Assembly: GCA_945874895.1 (NCBI GenBank) | Contig: CAMCIC010000014.1 | Span: 1 to 64,000 of the forward strand | Length of the DNA: 64,000 bases | DNA from: Akkermansia muciniphila | Lineage (GTDB): Bacteria; Verrucomicrobiota; Verrucomicrobiia; Verrucomicrobiales; Akkermansiaceae | Direction of reading: 5' to 3' | Shown: positions 2,717 through 21,452 of the stretch, in pieces | How the letters are laid out: each line of letters starts with the position of its first letter | Position numbering within the stretch: the first letter of the stretch is position 1 | The notes under the pieces: generated by a model | Told to the model about the DNA's origin: nothing | Database searches by the model: none | Seen by the model: only the letters and a program-made list of their open reading frames with translations | Made by a program: the position numbers and the translations under genes

Positions 2717-3520
2717 TTAGCCTCTCATCACGGTTACGACAACAATGTTTTCATGCAGATTCTGGGCGAAAATTCGCGCACATTCCTGCACTGTTGCTCC
2801 GGTGGTGAAGACATCGTCGATGATCAAAATGCCCGCTGTATTGGTGCGATCGAGCTTCCGCCCCGCGCGGGTGAGCTCGATCGCCCCGCGCAGATTCTGC
2901 AAGCGCTGGCGTCGGCTCAGATGAGTTTGTGTCGGAGTAGCTCGCGCCCGTTTGAGTGCTTTCACCACAGGGAGATTGAGAAATCTTCCGATGTGGCGGG
3001 CAATTTCTTCCGATTGATTGTAATGACGGTTCTGCTGGCGCTTCCAATGCAAGGGCACAGGGACTAGAGTCCACCGTTCCTCTAGGGCTTGTTTCAAGCG
3101 GTCGTCAGAAAAAGCCTCGGTCGCGATCCGTGCCAGTTCACATGCCAAGTAGAGATTTCGTTGATACTTCAGGCCGTGAATCAGTGTTCGCGCCGATTCG
3201 CTGCTCTTCAATACAGGACGAGCGAAACGAAAATCATAGCTCAGGCCGCGGCAGTTGGGGCAACGGAAATTCGAATCGATATTTCCTTCATACATCTCTC
3301 CGCACGATTCACAAAATGGCGCCTTGATGCGAGGCAGTTGATCTCGGCAGCTATCACAAAGATAGCGACCCTCTTGCAGCGACTCCTGGCATAGCTCACA
3401 GGAGGGCACATAAATGATATCGCACACTCGTTGCCAGCAGCGGCGATGCCATGGCTCTCGCAGCGCTGGCATTGCCGTAAGACGTGATGAAATTTCTCTT
3501 CCGATGCATGAGAATCGCAA
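2717..3520 (-). CDS. ComF family protein (amidophosphoribosyltransferase-like)
   Basis: N-terminal double CxxC zinc finger (CELCQESL...CDSCRDQLP...CESCGEMY...CPNCRG) and C-terminal PRTase motif GILIIDDVFTTGATVQECA. Confidence 0.88.
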   Translation of the reverse strand: MRFSCIGREISSRLTAMPALREPWHRRCWQRVCDIIYVPSCELCQESLQEGRYLCDSCRDQLPRIKAPFCESCGEMYEGNIDSNFRCPNCRGLSYDFRFARPVLKSSESARTLIHGLKYQRNLYLACELARIATEAFSDDRLKQALEERWTLVPVPLHWKRQQNRHYNQSEEIARHIGRFLNLPVVKALKRARATPTQTHLSRRQRLQNLRGAIELTRAGRKLDRTNTAGILIIDDVFTTGATVQECARIFAQNLHENIVVVTVMRG

Positions 3521-3563: not shown

Positions 3564-5369
3564 TTACCACGTCATGGTAATTCCACCATAGATCGCGGAT
3601 CCAGCAGCCCGAATGGCTTGGCCATAAAAATAAGATAGTAAATACGATTCATCCGTGAAATTTTCCCAACGTGCATGCAAACGAATGGTTTCCGTTGCTT
3701 GATACGATGCATGAATCCTGCCGACAGCGTAGGCTTCGATCGGTGCGCCGCCCCAAGAGTGATCCGATAAGGCATTCAGCCCGATGCCGAGCAAAAAGCG
3801 GTCGGTCGCTTGCCAATCGAGACCTGCGTTGATGTGATGCCGTGGTTGTTCGCTAAGGCCGCTCGGCAGATATGTCCATGCCAACCGATAATGCAAGACC
3901 CTGTCCAAAAAATTTCCGCTGAGGCCCGTTTCGAGTCCTTGCGTGTGAACATTTCCCGCCAGATTGATCGGTCGCGGTTGAGCAAACGAATTGATGCGAT
4001 CCTCGATGCTGTTCTGAAACATCGTAAACAGCAGAACATGGTTTTCCGTGAGACTCTGTTCGATACCGAAATCCCAACCCATCGATGACTCCGCCTGCAA
4101 ACTAGGATTGCCCTCGCCGAAGGAGGATCCGAAAAGATCGAGGTAGGTCGGCGCACGGAATGAAGATCCCACACCTGAGCGAATCATGGTCTGGGTGGCA
4201 TCGATTTCATAGCAACTTCCAATGCGCCAGGTGCTTTCTTCGCCGTAGGCATCGTAATCCTCCCATCGCCATGCGACATAGTTTTTCCAATGTTTCATGG
4301 TTTCCCAATCGACACCGAGATGCAGTCCATAGCGGTCTCGAGTCTGATCCGTGCCGATGGTGTTGACGAAGTCGCTGCGATGCCCAAAAACCCCGCCCAA
4401 AAAAACCCAATTGTCTCGCAGCGACCACTCATGATCAAGGAGCAGATTGATGGCCCGCATGTCCGTGCCGTAGTTGCCGTAACTCGAATCGCTATCGTAC
4501 ATTTCCTGATGGAATCCGCCGATAAAGCTCGTTTTCCAATCAGGACGCAACTGGCCGTTTAGATGAATCGTGAAAAGTGATCCATCCACGCGATCCTCTG
4601 AATTTCCTTGGTTGTTGTAGTAGGCGTCCACTCCACGGAAACTGAGCCCCGCCTGCCAATCCTTGTTGATTTTTTGTTCCAGTCGCAATGCCGCGTTGCC
4701 TTGGTGAAACTCTTCATGAGGGCTATCGTTGTTCGTTTCCTCCATCGAACTAGAAAGAAAAAACGATCCATTGTTTTTTTCACCTTGATATCGAATACCA
4801 GTGGAAAACGAGTCGAAGGAACCGACTTCAGCAAACAGGGTGCCCTGGGGCTTGCCGCTGCCGCGCGCGGTTTCTAACCAGAGCACACCGCCGATGGACT
4901 CACCGCCATACGCTGCGCCTTGTGCACCGCGCAGCACTTCTACACGACCCAAATCAAAGGAACGAGCCGCACCTAACATGTTGCCGAGAGGAGTCGTGGA
5001 GTCGCTGAGCCGTATTCCATCGACCACCAACTGTGAGTAGGCGGTATTCGTGCCGCGAATGAACACGGAGCCGAGGGCACCGGTTTGTCCACCCGTTGAG
5101 GTCGAAATCACTCCCGGCGACTCGTTCAAAGCATCGCGCAACTGGAACAACCCACGCTTTTCCCACTCTCGCGCGTCGAAAACCGCGACGCTCGATGCAA
5201 TGTCGCTAGCCTGACGCGGAGTTCGCAGCGCGGAGACCACGATGCTATCCCATTCTTGATCGACTTCCGCATGGCTCACCGCCGTGGCGAACGCGCCGAT
5301 CATCCCTCGTGCCACGACGGCACGCCAATGCTGACCTCTCAGAGAGGTCGTTTTCTTTTGTTTCATCAA
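3564..5369 (-). CDS. TonB-dependent receptor (BtuB-like, probable cobalamin/corrinoid receptor)
   Basis: Plug domain (REWEKRGLFQLRDALNESPGVI...GALGSVFIRGTNTAYSQLVVDGIRL...VEVLRGAQGAAYGGESIGGV); downstream of a cobalamin riboswitch. Confidence 0.88.
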   Translation of the reverse strand: MMKQKKTTSLRGQHWRAVVARGMIGAFATAVSHAEVDQEWDSIVVSALRTPRQASDIASSVAVFDAREWEKRGLFQLRDALNESPGVISTSTGGQTGALGSVFIRGTNTAYSQLVVDGIRLSDSTTPLGNMLGAARSFDLGRVEVLRGAQGAAYGGESIGGVLWLETARGSGKPQGTLFAEVGSFDSFSTGIRYQGEKNNGSFFLSSSMEETNNDSPHEEFHQGNAALRLEQKINKDWQAGLSFRGVDAYYNNQGNSEDRVDGSLFTIHLNGQLRPDWKTSFIGGFHQEMYDSDSSYGNYGTDMRAINLLLDHEWSLRDNWVFLGGVFGHRSDFVNTIGTDQTRDRYGLHLGVDWETMKHWKNYVAWRWEDYDAYGEESTWRIGSCYEIDATQTMIRSGVGSSFRAPTYLDLFGSSFGEGNPSLQAESSMGWDFGIEQSLTENHVLLFTMFQNSIEDRINSFAQPRPINLAGNVHTQGLETGLSGNFLDRVLHYRLAWTYLPSGLSEQPRHHINAGLDWQATDRFLLGIGLNALSDHSWGGAPIEAYAVGRIHASYQATETIRLHARWENFTDESYLLSYFYGQAIRAAGSAIYGGITMTW

Positions 5370-10597: not shown

Positions 10598-10661
10598 GTT
10601 GTAGGAGGATCTGCTCGGTCTTTTTTTGATAGAAATCCCACAGGTTTTCGTAACCGCCGCC

Positions 10662-13600
10662 ATGCGATGGATGCTCGGTATGCTTTGTTTTGCTGCGCAA
10701 GCCGCGGAAAAGGTTGATTACAACATGCCAGATGCGGTGACGGAGATTGCATCGCCTGATGCCGTTGCGCAAAAAATGTCCCGCGCGGTGAATCCGGCTG
10801 TGTTGGCAGATTTCCAGAAAAAACATCCAGCGGCGTTTTGGGTCTTTGGCGAGGATCGGCAATATGCACTGCGCAAGGGAGTCACACCGGCGCACTGGTT
10901 CGAAGAGGGGGCTCATCAGTATCGAAAGTTTTCTGGTGTAGCCCAACCGGGTGAGTTTTACGTGTTTCAGGTAGGGCTCATCGGGGCGCCTGAACTGACC
11001 GCTCAAATTCGCATGGATTCGTTGCCAGGTGCTGAGATGCGCGTGATTTCACCACAAGGGCGCAAGTTGGATGTCTTGTGGCTGGGGATACAGATTCCCG
11101 CTCATGCCCCGCCCGGTCGCTATGCGGGAAAAGTGCAATTCAATCCGATCATCACGGATTCAAAAAAAACCGGGCCAACGTTTGCTGAATCACTCGATTT
11201 CATCATCGAAGTCAAAGGGCATTTCGTCCCTGATGGTGGCACACACGATGCTTGGCGTCTGGCTCGCCTGCAGTGGCTGGACTCAACGATTGCCGATAGC
11301 GATCAGCAAGTGACACTTCCCTTTCAGCCGATAGGGGTGGATGAGGAAAAACGAGTCCTGTCAATACTGGGTAGATCCTTGACGCTGGGAGTGAATGGAA
11401 TTCCCTCTCAAATTACCAGTCGTTTTTCTAAGAGTAATACAAAAATTTTAACCACAGGTCGGGATGCTTTTGCAGAGCCACCACACTTGCAGTGCTTGTT
11501 CCAGGGCAAGCCGGTGGTGTGGCGGACTGTCGATTTTTCTTTCGGGAAACGCACGCCCGTCGCGGTGACATGGACGTCTCACAGCGTTGCTGAGAATTTG
11601 CGACTTACCGTGATGGGAGCCTTGGAGTTCGATGGCAATCTCCAGTTGCGCATGCAGCTCGATCCTACCGCGCTGGGCGAGGTCACTCTCGATGATGTGC
11701 GTTTTGTCGTGCCATGGCGCACGGAAGCGGTGCCGTATGCGATGGGGCTAGGAGGGCAAGGGGGCAAGTGTCCGCCACGGCACGATTGGAAATGGGACGT
11801 CAGCAAACACCAGGATGCGATCTGGATGGGCGACGTCAATATCGGCGCGATGCTGCGATTCAAGGATTCGTCGAACTTCCGCCGTCCGCTGATCAATGCC
11901 TACTATGACTTTTCCCCACTGAATCTTCCGACCTCCTGGGGCACAGGCGGTGTGAAGTGGGAAAAGGGAGAAACCATCACCCATCTGGTCGCCTACTCCG
12001 GTAGAAAAACCATCGGCACAACAAAGACACCTTTGCACTTCGATATCGATGGGTATCTCACTCCCTTCAAGTCCCTCGATCTGAAAAAGCACTTCGGTGA
12101 TCGCTACTTTCACAGCGGGCAGGGGAGTCCCGTCGAGAATACGGCGCATTTGAAAAAAGAAGGAGCCACGATTCTGGAAGTCCACCACAATCGCCTCTGC
12201 AATCCTTATATCAACTACCCTTACAACGACGACTCGATCACACACCTCAAGGACTTTGTCAAACAGGCGCACCGCGATGATATGCGGGTGGCGGTCTATT
12301 ACACCACGCGCGAGCTGACGCAGAATCTACCCGAATTTTTCGCTCTCAAGAGCATGGGCGGCGAGCTCATTCTCCCGCGCAAGCCCGGTGTGGCATGGCC
12401 CGTGACCAACCGCAGCGGTCCGCACCCATGGTTGTTGGAAAATGTGGGCGAGGATATCGTTCCTGCCTGGCGTGAAAACCTGCGTTTTGCCGAGTATCCC
12501 GCGAAGCTCGACCTCGCCGTCATCACCACACCAGATTCGCGCTGGAACAATTTCTACCTCGAGGGCTTGCAGTATCTCATCAAAAACGTCGGCATCGATG
12601 GCCTCTACATCGATGATACCGCACTCGATCGCAAGTCGATGCAGCGCGCACGGCGCTTGCTTGATGCCGATGGCAACACGGGTCGCCGTGTCAGCATGCA
12701 CTCGTGGAGCCATTTCAACGGCCTCGCGAAATGGAGCAACAGCTCGATTGCCTTCATGGAGCTTTACCCCTACTACGATGGCCTCTGGCACGGCGAGGGC
12801 TTTCATGCCCATGCGTCGCCGGATTTCATGCTGGTGGAAATGTCCGGCATTCCCTACGGCCTCATGAGCGAGATGCCGGATCACCCGAATGCCTGGCACG
12901 GCATGGTCTTCGGCATGCGCACCCGCTGGCCCTGGAGCGGTGATCCGCGCGCGCAGTGGCGATTCGAAAAAATGTTCGGCATCGAGGACTCCGAGTTCAT
13001 CGGCTGGTGGGATGAATCCTGCCCGGTGAAAGTCGATCATCCCGAGTGCAAAGTGTCGGTCTATCGGAAAAACGGCAAGACACTCATCGCCCTGTCCAGC
13101 TGGGCGAAAACGAATGCGAAAGTGAAATTGCAAATCGATTGGAAAGCCCTCGGGCTCTCGCCGCAAAAAGCCATGCTGTGGGCACCCGCCTGTGAGAAAT
13201 TCCAGAATGAAGCCGTCTTCGCTGCCGATAGCGAAATCCGCGTGGAAGCGAACAAGGGCTGGATGTTCATCGTCGATGAAACACCGCGCGAAATCTTGCT
13301 GCCTCTTGCCATGAAAAATCCCAGCGAGGGCCTGCGGGAACTGGCGTCTGCTCCTGCTCTGGACCTGAACATCCCGGCCAACACCGTCAGCACCAAGGAC
13401 CTCGCGTGGGTCAAAGGCGCTACCGTCGCCATGGCGCAGCTCGATCCCAAAAAAGATGCCGGTCAGTCGTGGGGCCTGGGTCTCGCCCTTGGCTGGAATA
13501 ATGGCAAATCCCTGCAAATCAACGCCCGCACCGATGGCCGCTGGAGCATCCGCCGCAACGGTCAGGAAATGCTGGAAGGCGAACACCCCGCCGGTCAGCC

Positions 13601-13820
13601 CGCCACCGTTGCATTCCGCCTCTCCGCCGATCAGGTGCAACTCCTCGCCAGCAGGAAGGACGGCGAGTGGGAGCTGGTCAAAGCCTTCCCGCGCAGCGAC
13701 TTCCCCGGCGAACCCGTCACCGTGCGCTACGGCAAAATCGGCACCACCTGGAATGGCCACCCCCACTCCGATCTCGGCAATGCAACCCCCTGCCGCGTGG
13801 AGTGGGTGAAATTGTATTGA
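10662..13820 (+). CDS. Secreted glycoside-hydrolase-like protein (DUF6067-type domain)
   Basis: Signal-peptide-like N-terminus MRWMLGMLCFAAQAAE; TIM-barrel-like central part (GATILEVHHNRL...MRVAVYYTTREL...NVGIDGLYIDDTALDRKSMQRARRLLDADG); ORF track starts at an upstream TTG. Confidence 0.6.
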   Translation: MRWMLGMLCFAAQAAEKVDYNMPDAVTEIASPDAVAQKMSRAVNPAVLADFQKKHPAAFWVFGEDRQYALRKGVTPAHWFEEGAHQYRKFSGVAQPGEFYVFQVGLIGAPELTAQIRMDSLPGAEMRVISPQGRKLDVLWLGIQIPAHAPPGRYAGKVQFNPIITDSKKTGPTFAESLDFIIEVKGHFVPDGGTHDAWRLARLQWLDSTIADSDQQVTLPFQPIGVDEEKRVLSILGRSLTLGVNGIPSQITSRFSKSNTKILTTGRDAFAEPPHLQCLFQGKPVVWRTVDFSFGKRTPVAVTWTSHSVAENLRLTVMGALEFDGNLQLRMQLDPTALGEVTLDDVRFVVPWRTEAVPYAMGLGGQGGKCPPRHDWKWDVSKHQDAIWMGDVNIGAMLRFKDSSNFRRPLINAYYDFSPLNLPTSWGTGGVKWEKGETITHLVAYSGRKTIGTTKTPLHFDIDGYLTPFKSLDLKKHFGDRYFHSGQGSPVENTAHLKKEGATILEVHHNRLCNPYINYPYNDDSITHLKDFVKQAHRDDMRVAVYYTTRELTQNLPEFFALKSMGGELILPRKPGVAWPVTNRSGPHPWLLENVGEDIVPAWRENLRFAEYPAKLDLAVITTPDSRWNNFYLEGLQYLIKNVGIDGLYIDDTALDRKSMQRARRLLDADGNTGRRVSMHSWSHFNGLAKWSNSSIAFMELYPYYDGLWHGEGFHAHASPDFMLVEMSGIPYGLMSEMPDHPNAWHGMVFGMRTRWPWSGDPRAQWRFEKMFGIEDSEFIGWWDESCPVKVDHPECKVSVYRKNGKTLIALSSWAKTNAKVKLQIDWKALGLSPQKAMLWAPACEKFQNEAVFAADSEIRVEANKGWMFIVDETPREILLPLAMKNPSEGLRELASAPALDLNIPANTVSTKDLAWVKGATVAMAQLDPKKDAGQSWGLGLALGWNNGKSLQINARTDGRWSIRRNGQEMLEGEHPAGQPATVAFRLSADQVQLLASRKDGEWELVKAFPRSDFPGEPVTVRYGKIGTTWNGHPHSDLGNATPCRVEWVKLY

Positions 13821-13858: not shown

Positions 13859-13930
13859 GTTCGTATATCAGCAATCAGATTTCCCCGCCTTGCTACTCGG
13901 CGCACCGTTCTGATATACGAACGGTTTTTT
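13859..13930. terminator. 13-bp perfect inverted repeat followed by T6; terminator-like hairpin marking the left flank of the cassette array
   Basis: GTTCGTATATCAG (13859-13871) / CTGATATACGAAC (13910-13922), then GGTTTTTT. Confidence 0.6.
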
Positions 13931-14037
13931 CAGAATTTCCTTGTCCTAGCATAGAAAATCTGATGATCTTCTCACTGAAATACCCACTTGATATAAGGGC
14001 CTGTTGGGATACGAACAAGAACTGTTCGCCAATAAAG

Positions 14038-14550
14038 ATGCGCATTCAGACTCCACATGATCCCGAGTATGCAACGTGTCATTACACTCACGCGTGGCTC
14101 CGAATCATGTCGGATGACTTTGATCTTGAGGAGGTAACGTCACTGGTCAAGGCCGAGCCAACAAAGACCCAGAAGAAGGGTGATTTACAATCGGCGGCAA
14201 GGCAGCGGCACTACAAGAAGACAGGATGGTGGATTTCGTCAGAGGGAGTAGTCTCCTCGAAGGACTCGCGAGATCACATCGACTTTATTCTCTCGAAGCT
14301 TGGTGACTCAGATGATGGTTTTAGTGTTCTTCACAGTCGTGGCTATCTGATCGATCTTTGTATTCGCTGGGATTCTTTGTCCGGCCATGGTGGGCCAACG
14401 CTCTCACCAATCCAGATGTCACGTCTTGCAGCCCTCGACATTGAAGTGTGGTTCGACGTTTACTTTCACGGGGACGATTTCGCGTGTGAAGGAGAGCCTC
14501 TGCCACCAAAACCATCAAACGGCGAACAAGACGTCACTCCTAACGCCTGA
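14038..14550 (+). CDS. DUF4279-like domain protein (cassette 1)
   Basis: ATHYTH.WLRIMSDDFDLEEVTSLVKAEPTKTQKKGD...GWWISSEGVVSSKD pattern; start MRIQTPHD, 8 nt after a GTTCGCC boundary. Confidence 0.65.
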   Translation: MRIQTPHDPEYATCHYTHAWLRIMSDDFDLEEVTSLVKAEPTKTQKKGDLQSAARQRHYKKTGWWISSEGVVSSKDSRDHIDFILSKLGDSDDGFSVLHSRGYLIDLCIRWDSLSGHGGPTLSPIQMSRLAALDIEVWFDVYFHGDDFACEGEPLPPKPSNGEQDVTPNA

Positions 14551-14644
14551 CCCGCCGCCAGTTCCAGCCTCCATGACCGTTACAACCTCAACCCCGTGTT
14601 CCAACCTCGCTCCCGGTCAGGCGTAGGAGGACTCGACGTTGGCT
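14521..14644 (+). repeat. attC site 1
   Basis: R''-like GGCGAAC at 14521; arms TCCTAACGCCTGACC / GGTCAGGCGTAGGA (one unpaired A); R'-like GTTGGCT at 14638. Confidence 0.75.
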
Positions 14645-14649
14645 TAAAA

Positions 14650-14907
14650 ATGAAAGCTACCCGCTACGCACATTCGGCAATCTTGCTCACAGTCGGAGCA
14701 ATTGCACTCATCTGGGGAGGTCGCGAGCTCTATTGCGCCCTTACCGCAGATAAACTTGAGCGGATCGCTTTGGAGAATGCACTGGGAGATGGGAATGGAC
14801 CTGAGCTTTTTGCACTGCGATTCATCGGCATTGGACTGCTGGCACTCACTGTTGGTTGGTTTGACTGGCGCTGGACCACAAAGAATATCGGACGACGTTC
14901 TGTGTAG
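14650..14907 (+). CDS. Small hypothetical membrane protein (cassette 2)
   Basis: 85 aa with two hydrophobic segments (SAILLTVGAIALIWGGREL, FIGIGLLALTVGWFDW); lies directly after attC1. Confidence 0.6.
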   Translation: MKATRYAHSAILLTVGAIALIWGGRELYCALTADKLERIALENALGDGNGPELFALRFIGIGLLALTVGWFDWRWTTKNIGRRSV

Positions 14908-14962
14908 GAGATGTTAGCATGAAGATCCTCATTTCGACGAACCATCCTAAATGGATGAAGAA

Positions 14963-15054
14963 AGCCAACAAGCTGAGGCACAGAACCGGCGACAAGGTCT
15001 TTCTTGGTTTTCAGGCTTCCATGGTCGCCGGTCCTGTGCTCTAAAACGTTCGCC
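14963..15054 (+). repeat. attC site 2
   Basis: AGCCAAC...GCACAGAACCGGCGAC / GTCGCCGGTCCTGTGC...GTTCGCC. Confidence 0.8.
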
Positions 15055-15075
15055 CAACCCAAGCAATATTCTGCA

Positions 15076-15726
15076 ATGATTTGGACTCACATTTACGATC
15101 TTCTCTGCAAGCTTGCAGCTATTGGCATTGTTGTAGCCGTAGTAGTCATAGGGATTGAGCGCCAGGGAGTGCTTCCAATATATCAGTTCTGCATCGCTGC
15201 CATTGTGAGTATTGCCGTTTGGTATTTAGTCCTTAGACCGTTTTCGTCTTGGTGTTACGGAAGGATCAGCCTGAAGGCATCTTTGACATTCGCTCAGTCC
15301 AGACGTGCTTCCGCTCTATTTTCACCACTCCTGAACCTCGCACAGTGGGATCCCATGAGACATGTGAGAGATATTCCCCGTGAAGAGAAATGTCTAGCGA
15401 TCATGTCTGCAGCAGATGATCTGTTGTCCTACCATGACGCACGATCTCGGGAGTGGCGAGCAGCACCCTTGCACGCCAAGATTCTTCGAGTGTTACTGTG
15501 GTCTTCCATACTTGGAGTCATTGTTATGACTGAGATGAACTTGCCCCCACTTAGCTGGGTTTCACAGTTGCAGGCCCTTGTGTCGGGGGGAAGTTATCTT
15601 CCGATCATTACGATTATCGTCGGCTGCATTCCTGTCGGCATTGCTATTGCCATGCTTGAAAGAAGATATGGAGTGCGCTCTATTGATCCCCATGCACAGG
15701 CCCTTGAGGTATCTAAGAAGCCATGA
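15076..15726 (+). CDS. Hypothetical multi-TM membrane protein (cassette 3)
   Basis: 216 aa, hydrophobic segments at both ends; no family recognised; flanked by attC2 and attC3. Confidence 0.6.
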   Translation: MIWTHIYDLLCKLAAIGIVVAVVVIGIERQGVLPIYQFCIAAIVSIAVWYLVLRPFSSWCYGRISLKASLTFAQSRRASALFSPLLNLAQWDPMRHVRDIPREEKCLAIMSAADDLLSYHDARSREWRAAPLHAKILRVLLWSSILGVIVMTEMNLPPLSWVSQLQALVSGGSYLPIITIIVGCIPVGIAIAMLERRYGVRSIDPHAQALEVSKKP

Positions 15727-15757
15727 ATCCACCACAGCTAACCACCAGCCACACAAG

Positions 15758-15884
15758 GGCGAACAAGGCGCGGCTGGACAACTGCTGGGGCTGCTCTGCC
15801 GACCATGCTTTCGGTAACTTCAACCCGCCGTCTCGTCTCAACGTTCACCCCCGCCCTAGCGGTGCCAGCGCTTAATCGTTCTGC
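15758..15884 (+). repeat. attC site 3
   Basis: GGCGAACAAGGCG...GCTGGACAACTGCTGGGGC / GCCCTAGCGGTGCCAGC...CGCTTAATCGTTCTGC. Confidence 0.72.
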
Positions 15885-15890
15885 AAGAAA

Positions 15891-16265
15891 ATGAAATGCT
15901 TCAACCATCCTCAATCTGACGGCGTAGCCGTTTGCAAATCCTGCGGCAGAGTCCTATGTCATGACTGTTGTGCCGAAGTTGGAACTGGTAGTGCGTGCAA
16001 GGGTAGATGCGAATCTGACGTGGAGGATTTGAATATCATAATTAAGAGAAGCAAATCGGCTTATCAGAAGACTGGAGGCGCATACAAGAGGAATGGGATT
16101 GTAATGCTTATTTTAGGATTAGCTTTTATCTTCATTGGAATCATTCCAGTCATTACAGGCCAAGGATACGCCACCGTATTCCTTGCTATTATGGGTCTTC
16201 TTTTTGTCATCTGGTCGTATTTTTCATTCGTGAGTGCCAAACAGATTACGAACATTGAAGAGTAA
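15891..16265 (+). CDS. Small Cys/His zinc-binding (B-box-like) protein with C-terminal TM segments (cassette 4)
   Basis: CFNHPQSDGVAVCKSCGRVLCHDCCAEVGTGSACKGRC followed by two hydrophobic helices. Confidence 0.65.
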   Translation: MKCFNHPQSDGVAVCKSCGRVLCHDCCAEVGTGSACKGRCESDVEDLNIIIKRSKSAYQKTGGAYKRNGIVMLILGLAFIFIGIIPVITGQGYATVFLAIMGLLFVIWSYFSFVSAKQITNIEE

Positions 16266-16274
16266 GACGAAGAA

Positions 16275-16398
16275 GCAGAAGCCGCGCCACGCAACCGCTA
16301 GTAGCCGTTCTGTTGAGATGATTTCACGTAACTACGACCCCAAACCCGTGAGCAACTTCCGCCGCAGCTACTAGCGGTGCGTGCGCTATACGTTCTGC
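16275..16398 (+). repeat. attC site 4
   Basis: GCAGAAG (degenerate R'')...CACGCAACCGCTAGTAGC / GCTACTAGCGGTGCGTG (one unpaired A)...GTTCTGC. Confidence 0.8.
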
Positions 16399-16414
16399 CA
16401 AAAATCCGACCGAG

Positions 16415-16765
16415 ATGAATCCTAGAGAAGACCTTCAGCATCTGCTACCTGAGACAGCACGAGAAGAACTGGTTGTTCTCCCCAAGAAGTCCATTCAGTA
16501 TGCCACGATTTCAATATCGACGCTAACCTTGGGTATCGGCATCGCGATTGGGACCTTGGCGATGGGGTCGACAGCGGGGGCGATAGCGCTGGTCGTGTGT
16601 TTGATCCTGTCGCGATTGCTGGGATACTACATCAACAAGCATGAGACCATGGTTGTAAGACGCTTCAAAGGCGGTCCCACCGAGACTCTAGCTTACATCA
16701 TGCACCAGCGAGAACAGAGGCAGAACAAGGCGTGCGAGGCAACCGGCGATAACGTCTCTGACTGA
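16415..16765 (+). CDS. Hypothetical membrane protein (cassette 5)
   Basis: 116 aa; central hydrophobic pair; C-terminus encoded inside attC5. Confidence 0.6.
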   Translation: MNPREDLQHLLPETAREELVVLPKKSIQYATISISTLTLGIGIAIGTLAMGSTAGAIALVVCLILSRLLGYYINKHETMVVRRFKGGPTETLAYIMHQREQRQNKACEATGDNVSD

Positions 16766-16807
16766 ATCGGAGCTTGATCCGCCGGTGCCTCCACATCATC
16801 GTTAGGC
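16720..16807 (+). repeat. attC site 5
   Basis: GCAGAACAAGGCG...GAGGCAACCGGCG / CGCCGGTGCCTC (one unpaired A)...GTTAGGC, matching the canonical GTTRRRY core. Confidence 0.88.
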
Positions 16808-16842
16808 GCGACCGAAGTAGGCCGCTGAGTTCTTTCTCTTTT

Positions 16843-18375
16843 ATGAACCGAACATTCCTGATTCTCTTGGCCTTTCTGCTGGCATCACTCGCCTCTCTTC
16901 ATGCCGCCTCGTATCATCTCGATGCCGAAGGTGGCTCCGATGATGGCGACGGGCTCAGTCCTGCCACCGCCTGGCGCTCGGTGGCCAAGGTGAATGCCTT
17001 CACCTTTCAGCCCGGCGACAGCTTATTGCTAAAGGCGGGTTCGGCTTGGACAGGGCAGTTGCATCCCTTGGGCTCCGGCACCGCCGGGCATCGAATCATA
17101 CTCGATCGCTACGGCGAAGGGCCGAAGCCAGCCATCCACGGTGGCGGTGTCGCTGGCGGAGCGGTGTTGCTGGTGAACCAGCAGCATTGGAGCATTCGCA
17201 ACATCGAGGTCACCAACCAAGGATCACCGGCACCGAAAAAGATGGGTGTCCTGATCCGCAACAACGCAGTCGGCACGCTGTCCGGCATCGAGGTGAAGGA
17301 CTGTGACATCCACGATGTAGTAGGCGATTTGACCGATTACCGCGATGGCAAGGAAAGCGGCGGGATCGTTTTCTATATCAACGTGGACCACCCTGAGCAG
17401 CCGTCCAAGTGGGACGACATCCGCATCGAGAACAACATGCTCCGCGACGTCACGCGCAATGGCATCCTCATGCAATCGCAGTGGATCAACAAGCCGAACG
17501 ACCCGAATTCAAGCTGGAAGGGACACGGTGCCTACACCACATCCACCAACATCCGCGTGGCGGGCAACCGCCTCGAACGGATCGGCGGCGACGGCATCAT
17601 CCTTTGGTGCGTGAAGGGCGCGCTCGTGGAGCGCAATTTCGTTCGGCAGTCGAACAACAATTCGGTGAAACAAGGTCATGCGGCGGTGTGGCCTTATTTC
17701 TGCGAGGACGTGATTTTTCAATACAACGAGGTGTGCGAGACGAAGACCAAGTTCGACGGCATGGCCTTCGATTTCGACAACAGCAACCAGCGCTGCATCT
17801 ACCAATACAATTACAGCCACGACAACGAGGGTGGCTTCCTCAATATGTGTTGTGACGGCAACGCCAACGGCAATATAGTTCGCTACAACGTCAGCCAGAA
17901 CGACGGATGTCTGGCCGGCAGTCGCGTCTTTCTCGTCCATGGTCACGGCAACCATAACTATCAAGTTTACAACAACACGATCTACGTGCGGAACGGTAAC
18001 CCGGCGATGTTCGAGCAAGGTGCGAACAGCAGCGAAAGCTCGATTACCTTCCAAAACAACATCTTCATCAATGACGGCAGCGGAACCTTTCTCGCGCCGA
18101 AGGGCTGCCAATTTGAGCGCAACCTCTACTTCGGTTCCGGCCACATCGAAGCCGATGAGAAGAAGATTCTCTCAGACCCGCGCCTGCGATCTCCCGGCAG
18201 TGGAAAGAGCGGGCTCGACTCGGTGGATGGATACAAACTCATGATAGGATCCCCCGCCTTCGATGCTGGCGTGCTCATCAAAGACAACGGCGGTCGTGAT
18301 TACTGGGGCATTGAGGTTTCCGGGACAGCCTCACTTCATCTGGGTGCATTCAATGGCAGTGCAGTGCAGCCGTAA
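16843..18375 (+). CDS. Secreted right-handed beta-helix (pectate-lyase-like) repeat protein (cassette 6)
   Basis: Signal peptide MNRTFLILLAFLLASLASLHAASYHLDAEGGSDDGDGLSPATAWRSVAKVN; repeated ENNMLRDVTRNGILMQ / VAGNRLERIGGDGIIL / QYNYSHDNEGGFLN type rungs. Confidence 0.82.
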   Translation: MNRTFLILLAFLLASLASLHAASYHLDAEGGSDDGDGLSPATAWRSVAKVNAFTFQPGDSLLLKAGSAWTGQLHPLGSGTAGHRIILDRYGEGPKPAIHGGGVAGGAVLLVNQQHWSIRNIEVTNQGSPAPKKMGVLIRNNAVGTLSGIEVKDCDIHDVVGDLTDYRDGKESGGIVFYINVDHPEQPSKWDDIRIENNMLRDVTRNGILMQSQWINKPNDPNSSWKGHGAYTTSTNIRVAGNRLERIGGDGIILWCVKGALVERNFVRQSNNNSVKQGHAAVWPYFCEDVIFQYNEVCETKTKFDGMAFDFDNSNQRCIYQYNYSHDNEGGFLNMCCDGNANGNIVRYNVSQNDGCLAGSRVFLVHGHGNHNYQVYNNTIYVRNGNPAMFEQGANSSESSITFQNNIFINDGSGTFLAPKGCQFERNLYFGSGHIEADEKKILSDPRLRSPGSGKSGLDSVDGYKLMIGSPAFDAGVLIKDNGGRDYWGIEVSGTASLHLGAFNGSAVQP

Positions 18376-18400
18376 TGCGCCCTACTTCTATGATCGAAAC

Positions 18401-18496
18401 GCCTAACAAAACATTGGTGGCAACGGCGGGTAACATCCCTCGTTCGCTTCGGTCTGGACATCCATTCTCCGCCGTGCTACACCTTTTACGTTCGCA
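18401..18496 (+). repeat. attC site 6
   Basis: GCCTAACAAAAC...GGTGGCAACGGCGG / CCGCCGTGCTACACC...TTTTACGTTCGCA. Confidence 0.82.
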
Positions 18497-18501
18497 AGAG
18501 A

Positions 18502-18933
18502 GTGAGCCAAAAAATCATAACCTTAATGAAGAAACTGCTGGTCGTGTTTGGTGGCGGATTAGGCGGCTTTGTCGTTGGATGTATTCTTTCGCTCTCTTAT
18601 TTCCATGCGAGTAAAGCCTTTGAGATGCATCTGCTTCCGCTGGGGGTGGTCATTCCTGGGACACTGATCTTGTGCATCGTGGCCGGGCTGGTTTACCCAA
18701 GATTTTTCAGCTACTATTTTCTGGTCCTCCTTTTGTTTTTGACGTGCGAAAAGGAGGACAAAGTGAGAAGATGGCGAATGGAGATTTTGACAATCGCTTA
18801 TTTTCTCGGATTTGTGGTTTTTCTTTTTGGTGTCATTACATGTAAGTCTTGGATCGTTGGGGTAGGCTTATTTGGCATGATCGTTTTCACCCTCGGCATC
18901 CCTCGCCTTCAACTCGGTGCGAACAAACCGTGA
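18502..18933 (+). CDS. Hypothetical membrane protein (cassette 7 position, after attC6)
   Basis: GTG start at 18502 (alternative ATG at 18526, MKKLLVVFGG); four hydrophobic segments; C-terminus LGANKP lies within attC7. Confidence 0.6.
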   Translation: MSQKIITLMKKLLVVFGGGLGGFVVGCILSLSYFHASKAFEMHLLPLGVVIPGTLILCIVAGLVYPRFFSYYFLVLLLFLTCEKEDKVRRWRMEILTIAYFLGFVVFLFGVITCKSWIVGVGLFGMIVFTLGIPRLQLGANKP

Positions 18934-18994
18934 GATGCAACCGGCGATTACGTCCCTCGTTGAATTCAGGCTCGCCATCGCTGGTGCATCTGCC
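18918..18994 (+). repeat. attC site 7, truncated (no R' box)
   Basis: TGCGAACAAACCG...GATGCAACCGGCGAT / ATCGCTGGTGCATC, then unrelated sequence instead of a GTT core. Confidence 0.72.
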
Positions 18995-19079
18995 AGATCC
19001 CCCAAAAGTGGTACAGTTTTAAAATAGAGTTTAGGGCTGCTAGGAAAATTGTGTAGTGCCCCCCTGAGATTTGGACAGT
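18995..19079. mobile_element. Two tandem IS-terminus-like sequences (possible IS3/IS150-type scars)
   Basis: AGATCCCCCAAAAGTGGTACAGTTTT (18995-19020) and TGTAGTGCCCCCCTGAGATTTGGACAGT (19052-19079), same orientation, no transposase ORF. Confidence 0.4.
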
Positions 19080-19112
19080 CTCTTTGTTAATTAGGCTGTG
19101 GCAACATGCTGA

Positions 19113-19140
19113 TTGACATCCATAACGCATGCGTTATGGT
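19113..19140 (+). promoter_or_regulatory. Candidate promoter with embedded 20-bp palindromic operator for the toxin-antitoxin module
   Basis: TTGACA (19113-19118), 16-nt spacer, TATGGT (19135-19140); perfect palindrome CCATAACGCATGCGTTATGG at 19120-19139. Confidence 0.6.
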
Positions 19141-19146
19141 TTTTTT

Positions 19147-19398
19147 GTGAATGGAACAACGATTACTCTGAAAAACGTGCCGCCAGAAATTCATCGCTCG
19201 CTCAAGGAGTGCGCGAAGCGGAATAAGCGTTCGCTCAACCAAGAGGCGATTCTTGCCTTGGAGTCATCGCTATTCGGTCGCCGCGAGCAACGCTCCACAC
19301 TGTGCCAGCCTCCTCTCTTAAGGAGCGTGGGCAAGATACTGGTGAGCCGCGAGCAACTCGATGCCCGCGCGGATGATATCATGGAGCGCGGCGCATGA
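19147..19398 (+). CDS. FitA/VapB-like ribbon-helix-helix antitoxin
   Basis: TTITLKNVPPEIHRSLKECAKRNKRSLNQEAILALE is typical of the Arc/FitA-like antitoxin N-terminus; start taken at GTG 19147 (ORF track uses ATG 19129 within the palindrome). Confidence 0.78.
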   Translation: MNGTTITLKNVPPEIHRSLKECAKRNKRSLNQEAILALESSLFGRREQRSTLCQPPLLRSVGKILVSREQLDARADDIMERGA

Positions 19399-19826
19399 TC
19401 GGGATCGATACCAACGTTTTAGTTGCCTTCGTCATTCCGGAGCATCCGGATCATGGCAAGGTGAGGGCGCTAATCGATCAGTTCCAGCGGGAAGGTCGCC
19501 GTCTGGCCGTGACCTCGGGCATTCTCGCCGAATTCGTGCATGTCGTTACCGATGCGCGGCGCTTCGAGAATCCATTGTCCATGGCCGAAGCCCTCACATG
19601 GGCGATATTCTGGAGCGAGGCCGAGGAGGTCGTGATCGTATCCACTGATAGCATCGCGCATGAGCAATGGTTGCTTTGGCTGAGGCAACACCACTTGGGA
19701 CGGAAGCGCCTGCTCGATACACTGATTGCCGCCTCTTGGTGGGCGGTGGGCATCCAGGAAATACTCACTCTGAATCCAGCGGACTTCACCGTGTTTGATG
19801 CATTCCAGTTTCACACCTTGGATTGA
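19395..19826 (+). CDS. PIN-domain toxin ribonuclease (VapC/FitB-like)
   Basis: MIGIDTNVLVAF...(E)FVHVVTD...KRLLDTLIAASWWAVGIQEILTLNPADF; ATGA overlap with the antitoxin. Confidence 0.85.
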   Translation: MIGIDTNVLVAFVIPEHPDHGKVRALIDQFQREGRRLAVTSGILAEFVHVVTDARRFENPLSMAEALTWAIFWSEAEEVVIVSTDSIAHEQWLLWLRQHHLGRKRLLDTLIAASWWAVGIQEILTLNPADFTVFDAFQFHTLD

Positions 19827-19975
19827 TTGATTTCAGCCAGGCAGAGGGGTGCTAGCTGTGAGATGCGTTTTTCGCGTATTCAGACGAGATATTCGAAAAA
19901 ATCCGCTTCGGAATTCGTCTTCGCGGGGACATTTTCCCTTGTCGATCGCGCAGAATCCTCGTAATCCTATCGCAC

Positions 19976-20581
19976 ATGAAATCGCTTCTCTTGATGGTTG
20001 GTGCCTGTTTCGCCTCTTGCCTGCTGGCTGCCGGGGTGGAGGAAGGTTTTGTCTCCCTGTTTGATGGGAAAACCTTCGACGGCTGGAAAATCAACCGTGT
20101 GCCAGAATCGTTCGCGATCGAGGATGGTGCCATCCGCGCTAATGGCGATTGCAGCCACATCTTTTACGAGGGCAAAGTCAACGGTGGGAAATTCAAGAAC
20201 TTCGAACTTCGCATGGATGTCATGACCCGCAAGAACTCGAATGGCGGTGTGTTCATTCACACCGTCTTCCAAGACAAAGGCTGGCCCAGCGGTTACGAAA
20301 TCCAAGTGAACAATACGCAAAAAGATCCGCAGAAATCCGGTGGCCTCTACAACACCGTAAAAAATCTTGTACCTTTCGAAGATGACAGGTGGATGAAATA
20401 CGTGATCCTCGTCAAGGACGGTCATGTTACCGTCACGGTCAATGAAAAGGAATTGGTCAACTACAAAACCGAGGCCTCCACCACCAAGCTTCTGCCCGAG
20501 GGCGGCACCTTCGCCATCCAGGCCCACGACAAGGGCAGCACGACGCTTTACAAAAACATCCGCGTCAAGGTGCTACCATAA
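19976..20581 (+). CDS. Secreted DUF1080 (3-keto-disaccharide hydrolase-like) protein
   Basis: GFVSLFDGKTFDGWKINR...FELRMDVMTRKNSNGGVFIHT...GYEIQVNNT...GTFAIQAHDKGSTTLYKNIRVK. Confidence 0.85.
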   Translation: MKSLLLMVGACFASCLLAAGVEEGFVSLFDGKTFDGWKINRVPESFAIEDGAIRANGDCSHIFYEGKVNGGKFKNFELRMDVMTRKNSNGGVFIHTVFQDKGWPSGYEIQVNNTQKDPQKSGGLYNTVKNLVPFEDDRWMKYVILVKDGHVTVTVNEKELVNYKTEASTTKLLPEGGTFAIQAHDKGSTTLYKNIRVKVLP

Positions 20582-20600
20582 GAAATATCCTTCCACTCCA

Positions 20601-21452
20601 ATGAAAACAAGCATCCTTCCACTCACCCTGATCGGGCTCACATGCCTGCCACTTACCTCCGCATTGGCCGAGGACAAAAAAGCTCCATTCACCATGACTA
20701 CTGAAACACCCGCTGACGTCAAAGCAGCACCCGCAGATGCCGAGAAAACCAAGACGGGCCTGGCCTCGAAGGTTTTGAAACCAGGAACCGGAACCGAAAA
20801 ACCTGCCGCCGCGGATACGGTGACGGTGCACTATTGTGGCTGGACCACGGATGGGAAAAAATTCGATAGCTCGTTGGATCGTGGTCAACCCACCAGTTTC
20901 CCGCTGAATCAGGTGATCAAGGGCTGGACCGAAGGTCTGCAATTGATGACCCAGGGAGAAATCCGTCGATTCTGGATTCCTGCCGATCTGGCATACGGTG
21001 AAAATCCTGGCGGTGGCCGTCCTGGTGGCACGCTGGTGTTTGATGTGGAGTTGCTGTCCATCAAGGTGGCACCTAAGCCACCACCGGTGCCAGAAGATGT
21101 GAAGGCAGCACCTGCCGATGCGGAAAAAACAACATCCGGATTGGCATCGAAAGTCCTGACCAAGGGAACTGGCGAGGTTCGCCCGAAAGTGACGGACAAT
21201 GTGACGGTTCACTACACCGGATGGACCACGGATGGCCAAATGTTTGATAGCTCTGTGGTTCGTGGTCAATCAGCCACCTTTCCGCTCAATCGTGTGATCC
21301 CCGGTTGGAGTGAAGGCGTGCAATTGATGGTAGAGGGCGAAAAACGCCGATTCTGGATTCCCGCTGAGTTAGCCTACGGCAAAAACCCGCCTCCCGGTGC
21401 CCCTGCTGGTCTGCTCGTATTTGATGTGGAATTGCTGAACATCGCAAAATAA
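20601..21452 (+). CDS. Secreted peptidyl-prolyl isomerase with two tandem FKBP domains
   Basis: Two copies of TVTVHYxGWTTDGxxFDSSxxRGQ...FPLNxVIxGWxEGxQLMxxGExRRFWIPAxLAYGxNP. Confidence 0.92.
   Translation: MKTSILPLTLIGLTCLPLTSALAEDKKAPFTMTTETPADVKAAPADAEKTKTGLASKVLKPGTGTEKPAAADTVTVHYCGWTTDGKKFDSSLDRGQPTSFPLNQVIKGWTEGLQLMTQGEIRRFWIPADLAYGENPGGGRPGGTLVFDVELLSIKVAPKPPPVPEDVKAAPADAEKTTSGLASKVLTKGTGEVRPKVTDNVTVHYTGWTTDGQMFDSSVVRGQSATFPLNRVIPGWSEGVQLMVEGEKRRFWIPAELAYGKNPPPGAPAGLLVFDVELLNIAK

Follow-up and report, generated by a model that had tools for sequence, protein, structure and literature searches.

The DNA analysed here, referred to as the window, is a stretch of 64,000 nucleotides from a genome of Akkermansia muciniphila. 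Positions 14024 to 18996 are occupied by seven consecutive head-to-tail integron cassettes; six of their attC sites are complete and one is truncated (Table 1). A preliminary description of this DNA had placed a cassette array of integron type in a Verrucomicrobiota-type chromosome and counted six ORFs and seven repeats. The array was confirmed by its boxes, bottom-strand folds, a covariance model and a cassette-end test, and the left boxes, read directly in the sequence, occur exactly at the seven positions claimed. The count of seven repeats also stands, although the seventh attC has no R' box, but the cassettes and ORFs number seven rather than six.

Table 1. Features of the array and its flanks, and IS110-type sites in other arrays. 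Positions are those of the window unless a locus (L) is named; numbers in brackets after boxes are box positions, and a slash before TT marks the crossover.
Feature	Coordinates	Strand	Start box / end box, or sequence	Remarks
Left flanking gene, outside array	10626..13820	+		from ORF list; about 1,050-1,064 aa, function not assigned
attI module	13859..14024 (166 bp)	+		about 80% identical to G226 attI modules
attI outer inverted repeat	13859-13871 / 13910-13922		GTTCGTATATCAG / CTGATATACGAAC	
attI direct motif	13988-13997		TTGATATAAG	
attI core	14010-14026		TACGAACAAGAACTG/TT	crossover between 14024 and 14025
Cassette 1, with attC1	14025..14638	+	GTTCGCC (14024) / GGCGAAC (14521)	ORF 14038-14550; DUF4279 protein, PF14106 E=4.5e-16
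attC1	14521..14644	+		boxes, covariance model
Cassette 2	14639..15048	+	GTTGGCT (14638) / AGCCAAC (14963)	ORF 14650-14907; 85 aa, membrane-like by inspection
attC2	14963..15054	+		boxes, covariance model
Cassette 3	15049..15878	+	GTTCGCC (15048) / GGCGAAC (15758)	ORF 15076-15726; 216 aa, membrane-like by inspection
attC3	15758..15884	+		boxes, covariance model
Cassette 4	15879..16392	+	GTTCTGC (15878) / GCAGAAG (16275)	ORF 15891-16265; 124 aa
attC4	16275..16398	+		boxes, covariance model
Cassette 5	16393..16801	+	GTTCTGC (16392) / GCAGAAC (16720)	ORF 16415-16765; 116 aa, membrane-like by inspection
attC5	16720..16807	+		boxes, covariance model
Cassette 6	16802..18490	+	GTTAGGC (16801) / GCCTAAC (18401)	ORF 16843-18375; 510 aa, probably secreted
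attC6	18401..18496	+		boxes, covariance model
Cassette 7	18491..18996	+	GTTCGCA (18490) / TGCGAAC (18918)	ORF 18526-18933; 135 aa, membrane-like by inspection
attC7, truncated	18918..18996	+		R' (GTT side) missing; 19.8 bits
Right flank, DUF1080-like and FKBP-like genes	19870..21444	+		by inspection; syntenic with G226
IS110-type sites, this genome	L048 ~3430-3510; L049 ~4500-4584; L051 1-80			
IS110-type gene beside first cassette of G121 array	L138 9966-11033			

A homologue of cassette 1 stands first in an intI-bearing integron of genome G172. Family searches gave a DUF202 match below the cut-off for the protein of cassette 2 and no match for that of cassette 3. The cassette 4 protein has hydrophobic stretches after a Cys-rich N-terminus and a weak zf-B_box match, below cut-off, and that of cassette 6 is beta-helix-like by inspection, with a partial match to lacto-N-biosidase NF047897 far below cut-off. 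PADLOC assigned no defence family to the cassette proteins. Directly after the array, without attC, lies a VapBC-like pair of RHH antitoxin and PIN toxin genes (19129-19826). Between the truncated attC7 and this pair (18994-19090) are two CCCCC-rich stretches that resemble insertion-sequence ends and are perhaps a remnant of whatever truncated attC7.

The strongest test of the identity of the array is the complementarity of cassette ends. Each start box is complementary to the end box of its own cassette at 7/7 bases in six cassettes and 6/7 in one, whereas the boxes inside each physical repeat pair at merely 4 to 6 bases. For the variable bases of the window (R' against its own R''), 28/28 were complementary, a result equalled by 4 of 5,040 permutations; among 150 cassettes, mostly from relatives, the mean was 3.38 of 4 against a shuffled mean of 2.08 and maximum of 2.32. 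Cassette ends pair with each other and not with their neighbours in the repeat, as is characteristic of units that have moved as circles. The repeats also have R''/R' boxes of the form NNNNAAC / GTTNNNN and imperfect palindromic arms (six complete, one truncated), and their bottom strands fold into the attC hairpin. A scan of the window for paired arms was attempted as a sole criterion and rejected: five of the six complete repeats reach -30 to -39 kcal/mol, but attC6 (-23) falls within the background, where most pairs are near -23, and two intragenic pairs attain -32; the energy of a hairpin is thus no proof by itself. An Rfam scan of the array gave no family, after which our own attC and attI models were built. 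On the attC covariance model (R2) the complete sites scored 40-51 bits and the truncated seventh 19.8, far above background (the next best in the window was 10.6). The training set of this model included the six complete attC of the window, and the independent tests are therefore the seventh site and the loci of relatives. The stretch is thus a real integron gene-cassette array.

The absence of a tyrosine recombinase from the window, noted in the preliminary description, was upheld by a PF00589 search, which gave five matches in this genome and none on the contig of the window. These five were rejected as IntI, all being far below the TIGR02249 cut-off (265 bits). No IntI was detected above that cut-off in the assembled part of the 2.9-Mb genome (97% complete), where the best score was 86 bits, from split matches of Xer type, nor was any within 3 kb upstream of the window attI. 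Two N-terminal stubs of intI are present, both at loci other than that of the window. In the order, IntI exceeded the cut-off in 141/387 genomes, and within the genus a full-length match occurred in four genomes. Where congeners bear intI, the IntI scored 339 bits on TIGR02249, and the genus IntI matched nearly the whole chain of the solved integron integrase 2a3v (E 7e-70). The IntI of this clade (L026 6764-8074, minus strand) carries ~118 extra N-terminal amino acids with no Pfam domain, and it is from this extra part that the stubs beside orphan attI sites derive.

In congener G226, intI is separated from the first cassette by DNA that is homologous to the stretch preceding cassette 1 of the window, and the window module is ~80% identical to the attI modules of that genome, one of which adjoins its intI. 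By this homology, the 166 bp that precede cassette 1 are an attI site. Of a complete integron, the array accordingly has the attI at its head (13859-14024) and lacks the intI beside it. The preliminary description had proposed either a CALIN or the distal part of an integron. That the cassettes have no adjoining intI holds; given the attI, which had gone unrecognised, the window holds the proximal end, headed by attI, of an array that lacks intI. An ATG at 13963, inside attI, is in frame with the cassette 1 gene (13963-14550), and attI could supply this gene with a translated leader.

In searches of the genus, this genome yielded four more attI copies and G226 yielded seven. The aligned copies have in common the outer inverted repeat, TGATATA motifs and the core TACGAATAAATACTGTT. 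A sequence model (R1) was made from 12 copies including that of the window, which scored 126.9 bits as a member of its own training set. R1 matched 44/260 genomes of the family, including modules adjoining intI in several genera; in one genus (g2) with many genomes, none listed with IntI, merely two weak partial matches were obtained. Beside intI, the module is conserved in divergent orientation in congeners and other genera, with the intI start ~60-210 bp away in most. A deeper search of five genomes gave 6 matches in this genome (5 strong), 12 in G226, 9 in G202, 15 in G299 and 15 in G350, the weakest being near threshold and the copy numbers model-dependent. Intact IntI genes number 0, 1, 0, 0 and 1, respectively; nearly all genomes are metagenome assemblies in which many arrays reach contig ends, and a gap could hide an intI. 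The closed genome G121 (a single 5.68-Mb contig) has modules at 1.281, 1.952 and 3.456 Mb. IntI adjoins the 3.456-Mb module only, and the three intact IntI genes of that genome equal the modules found. Family-wide, the attI site has been copied to up to 15 places per genome, with the integrase single or missing in most. A sixth, decayed attI-like module without recognisable core or attC was also observed in this genome (G000:C9:46388-46535, L132).

Orphan modules are used as insertion junctions. Same-strand attC (model R2) were found within 2 kb downstream of 47/60 modules and not within that distance of the other 13, and no opposite-strand attC was found within 3 kb of the 60. At 44 orphan attI sites, a few of which could have intI beyond the contig or locus end because the upstream sequence is short, the boxes of the first cassette match perfectly in 34, with a mean of 3.57 of 4 against a shuffled mean of 2.17 and maximum of 2.68 (5,000 shuffles). 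Among modules with at least 1.4 kb of upstream sequence, most have no intI and some have N-terminal stubs. The 1.952-Mb array of G121 gave no match to the attC model, and an IS110-type gene adjoins its first cassette.

Cassettes have also turned over at these sites. The arrays of the window and of G226:C7 have the same flanking genes (83% and 82% DNA identity) and the same attI (80%), but no cassette protein in common; conservation of the flanks around replaced cassettes is also not what a stable operon, an alternative raised in the preliminary description, would give. The orthologue of the left flanking gene is followed by the same attI in G226 but not in G138 and G256. As the latter two have the left gene and not the right flank, no clean comparison with an empty site was obtained at the window locus, and no clean empty site was found beside the orphan modules. 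One 440-bp cassette recurs in two orphan arrays of G299 with 97.5% identity, the shared segment running precisely from R' to R', and arrays of different genera, G226:C7 and G299:C21, have one cassette in common at 93.6% identity. Turnover at an orphan locus, together with cassettes common to separate arrays, indicates that site-specific insertion occurred without a neighbouring intI, and the simplest inference is that a distant IntI did this in trans.

Other elements were noted near these sites. In three arrays of this genome, transposase genes of IS110 type (by inspection) follow an attC box of AAC(AAG) type, and the three insertions have the same junction, GAACAAG/ATTAGATGAG. The IS1111-attC group targets attC, and by analogy the IS110-type element looks like one that does so. 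An attC pair without attI (G000:C7:151916-152589, L140; L005 1189-1878) lies beside a degenerate non-IntI tyrosine recombinase, and a similar recombinase adjoins intI in G138 by inspection (L027 1-1193).

We consider it likely that attI multiplied within lineages, with a few integrases acting on the copies in trans, and that in this genome these integrases have since been lost. An ancestral integron with intI, attI and cassettes would have given rise to copies at many chromosomal places in lineages of the family. In most or all copies intI would have decayed, leaving short N-terminal stubs in some, and attI would have been kept as a landing pad. One IntI, encoded at a different place in the cell, would then act in trans on all attI, inserting circular cassettes at the G/TT of each and excising them through folded bottom-strand attC, with each attI heading its own array. 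This stretch would be one arm of such a distributed integron. As only stubs and no IntI gene were found in this genome, its array is now probably frozen.

Similar arrays could have arisen from several independent complete integrons, each active in cis, that lost intI one by one without any action in trans. Stubs of the intI N-terminus adjoin attI at six loci, two of them in this genome, and several orphan modules share a leader of 100-400 bp on their left side. These features suggest that an intI-attI end was copied and intI then lost, which would explain at least part of the copies, and repeated loss of this kind could give similar arrays. The module tree, however, places all G299 modules together, all G350 modules included in it together and all G321 modules together, and those of this genome with most of G226's. 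Such grouping by genome points to copying within lineages. At the orthologous locus the G226 flank has no trace of intI, so that the orphan state is common to both genomes while the cassettes are wholly different, and in IntI-bearing G226 7/9 cores still equal the consensus, compared with 2/5 in this genome (9 against 5 sites). Loss in cis without trans action is improbable.

Another reading concerns the module itself. Its first bases are GTTCGTA and its last, before G/TT, are TACGAA(C/T), like cassette ends; some orphan modules have abruptly differing left flanks; and modules occur inside arrays (three in one G299:C3 array, two each in loci L068 and L081). These are hints that the attI module is itself mobile, spread by IntI to new chromosomal sites and into arrays and seeding arrays there, a reading we regard as unlikely. 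If true, it would describe a self-propagating, multi-port integron.

An ordinary CALIN, with attC cassettes seeded at attG or left by rearrangement and no attI, would fit the lack of a nearby intI, and the attI-less attC pair on C7 is an example of such a state in this genome. At the window locus, where the 166-bp module ends exactly at the G/TT of the first cassette, this explanation is refuted and very improbable. That the repeats are terminators between the genes of a stable operon, for which hairpins between co-oriented genes and the two strong background hairpins might speak, is refuted by cassette-end complementarity across ORFs, the covariance scores and a syntenic locus without conserved gene content, and we give it practically no credence.

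The usual picture of an integron shows one integrase with one neighbouring attI and a single array. In the family described here, copies of the landing site are spread over the chromosome and the integrase is single or lost, which provides a natural series for measuring attI decay, running from an intact intI to stubs and then to complete loss. If this is confirmed, many Verrucomicrobiota arrays filed as CALINs would be attI-headed, a genome would offer several first positions simultaneously, and perhaps several promoters, and trans action by IntI would reach sites megabases distant.

Sedentary chromosomal integrons have the attI-IntI arrangement that is seen at the intI-bearing loci of congeners; the difference is that attI is here multiplied and apart from intI, with at most 15 modules per zero or one intact intI. 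CALINs, the IntegronFinder class of attC clusters lacking an integron integrase, are likewise cassettes without adjoining intI (PMC9024848), and the window array has two or more attC with no integrase next to them. CALINs are defined by attC alone, however, and the window array is headed by a full attI with a consensus-type core, a feature that the use of the term implies to be absent, though formally this is not required. The description of IntegronFinder 2.0 places attI near the integrase and states that it goes undetected except in class 1 (PMC9024848). In Xanthomonas, CALINs are described at several loci with progressive loss of intI, and IntI is stated to be able to mobilise CALINs in trans (PMC12444791). 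Loss of intI and arrays at several chromosomal places are thus common to both, but the accessible portion of that account describes the dispersed Xanthomonas arrays by attC only, without attI copies (PMC12444791). In the open-access literature, to the extent that its text was available, we found no description of many full attI modules heading separate arrays. Delta-attI-type cassettes are reported from class 1 and 2 (mobile) integrons, and in these attI is likewise inside arrays, downstream of an ORF, and recombines with IntI1 (PMC12901181). They consist mostly of attI fragments, or of a single complete copy of 65 bp, within mobile integrons, whereas in the family described here full attI modules head separate chromosomal arrays.
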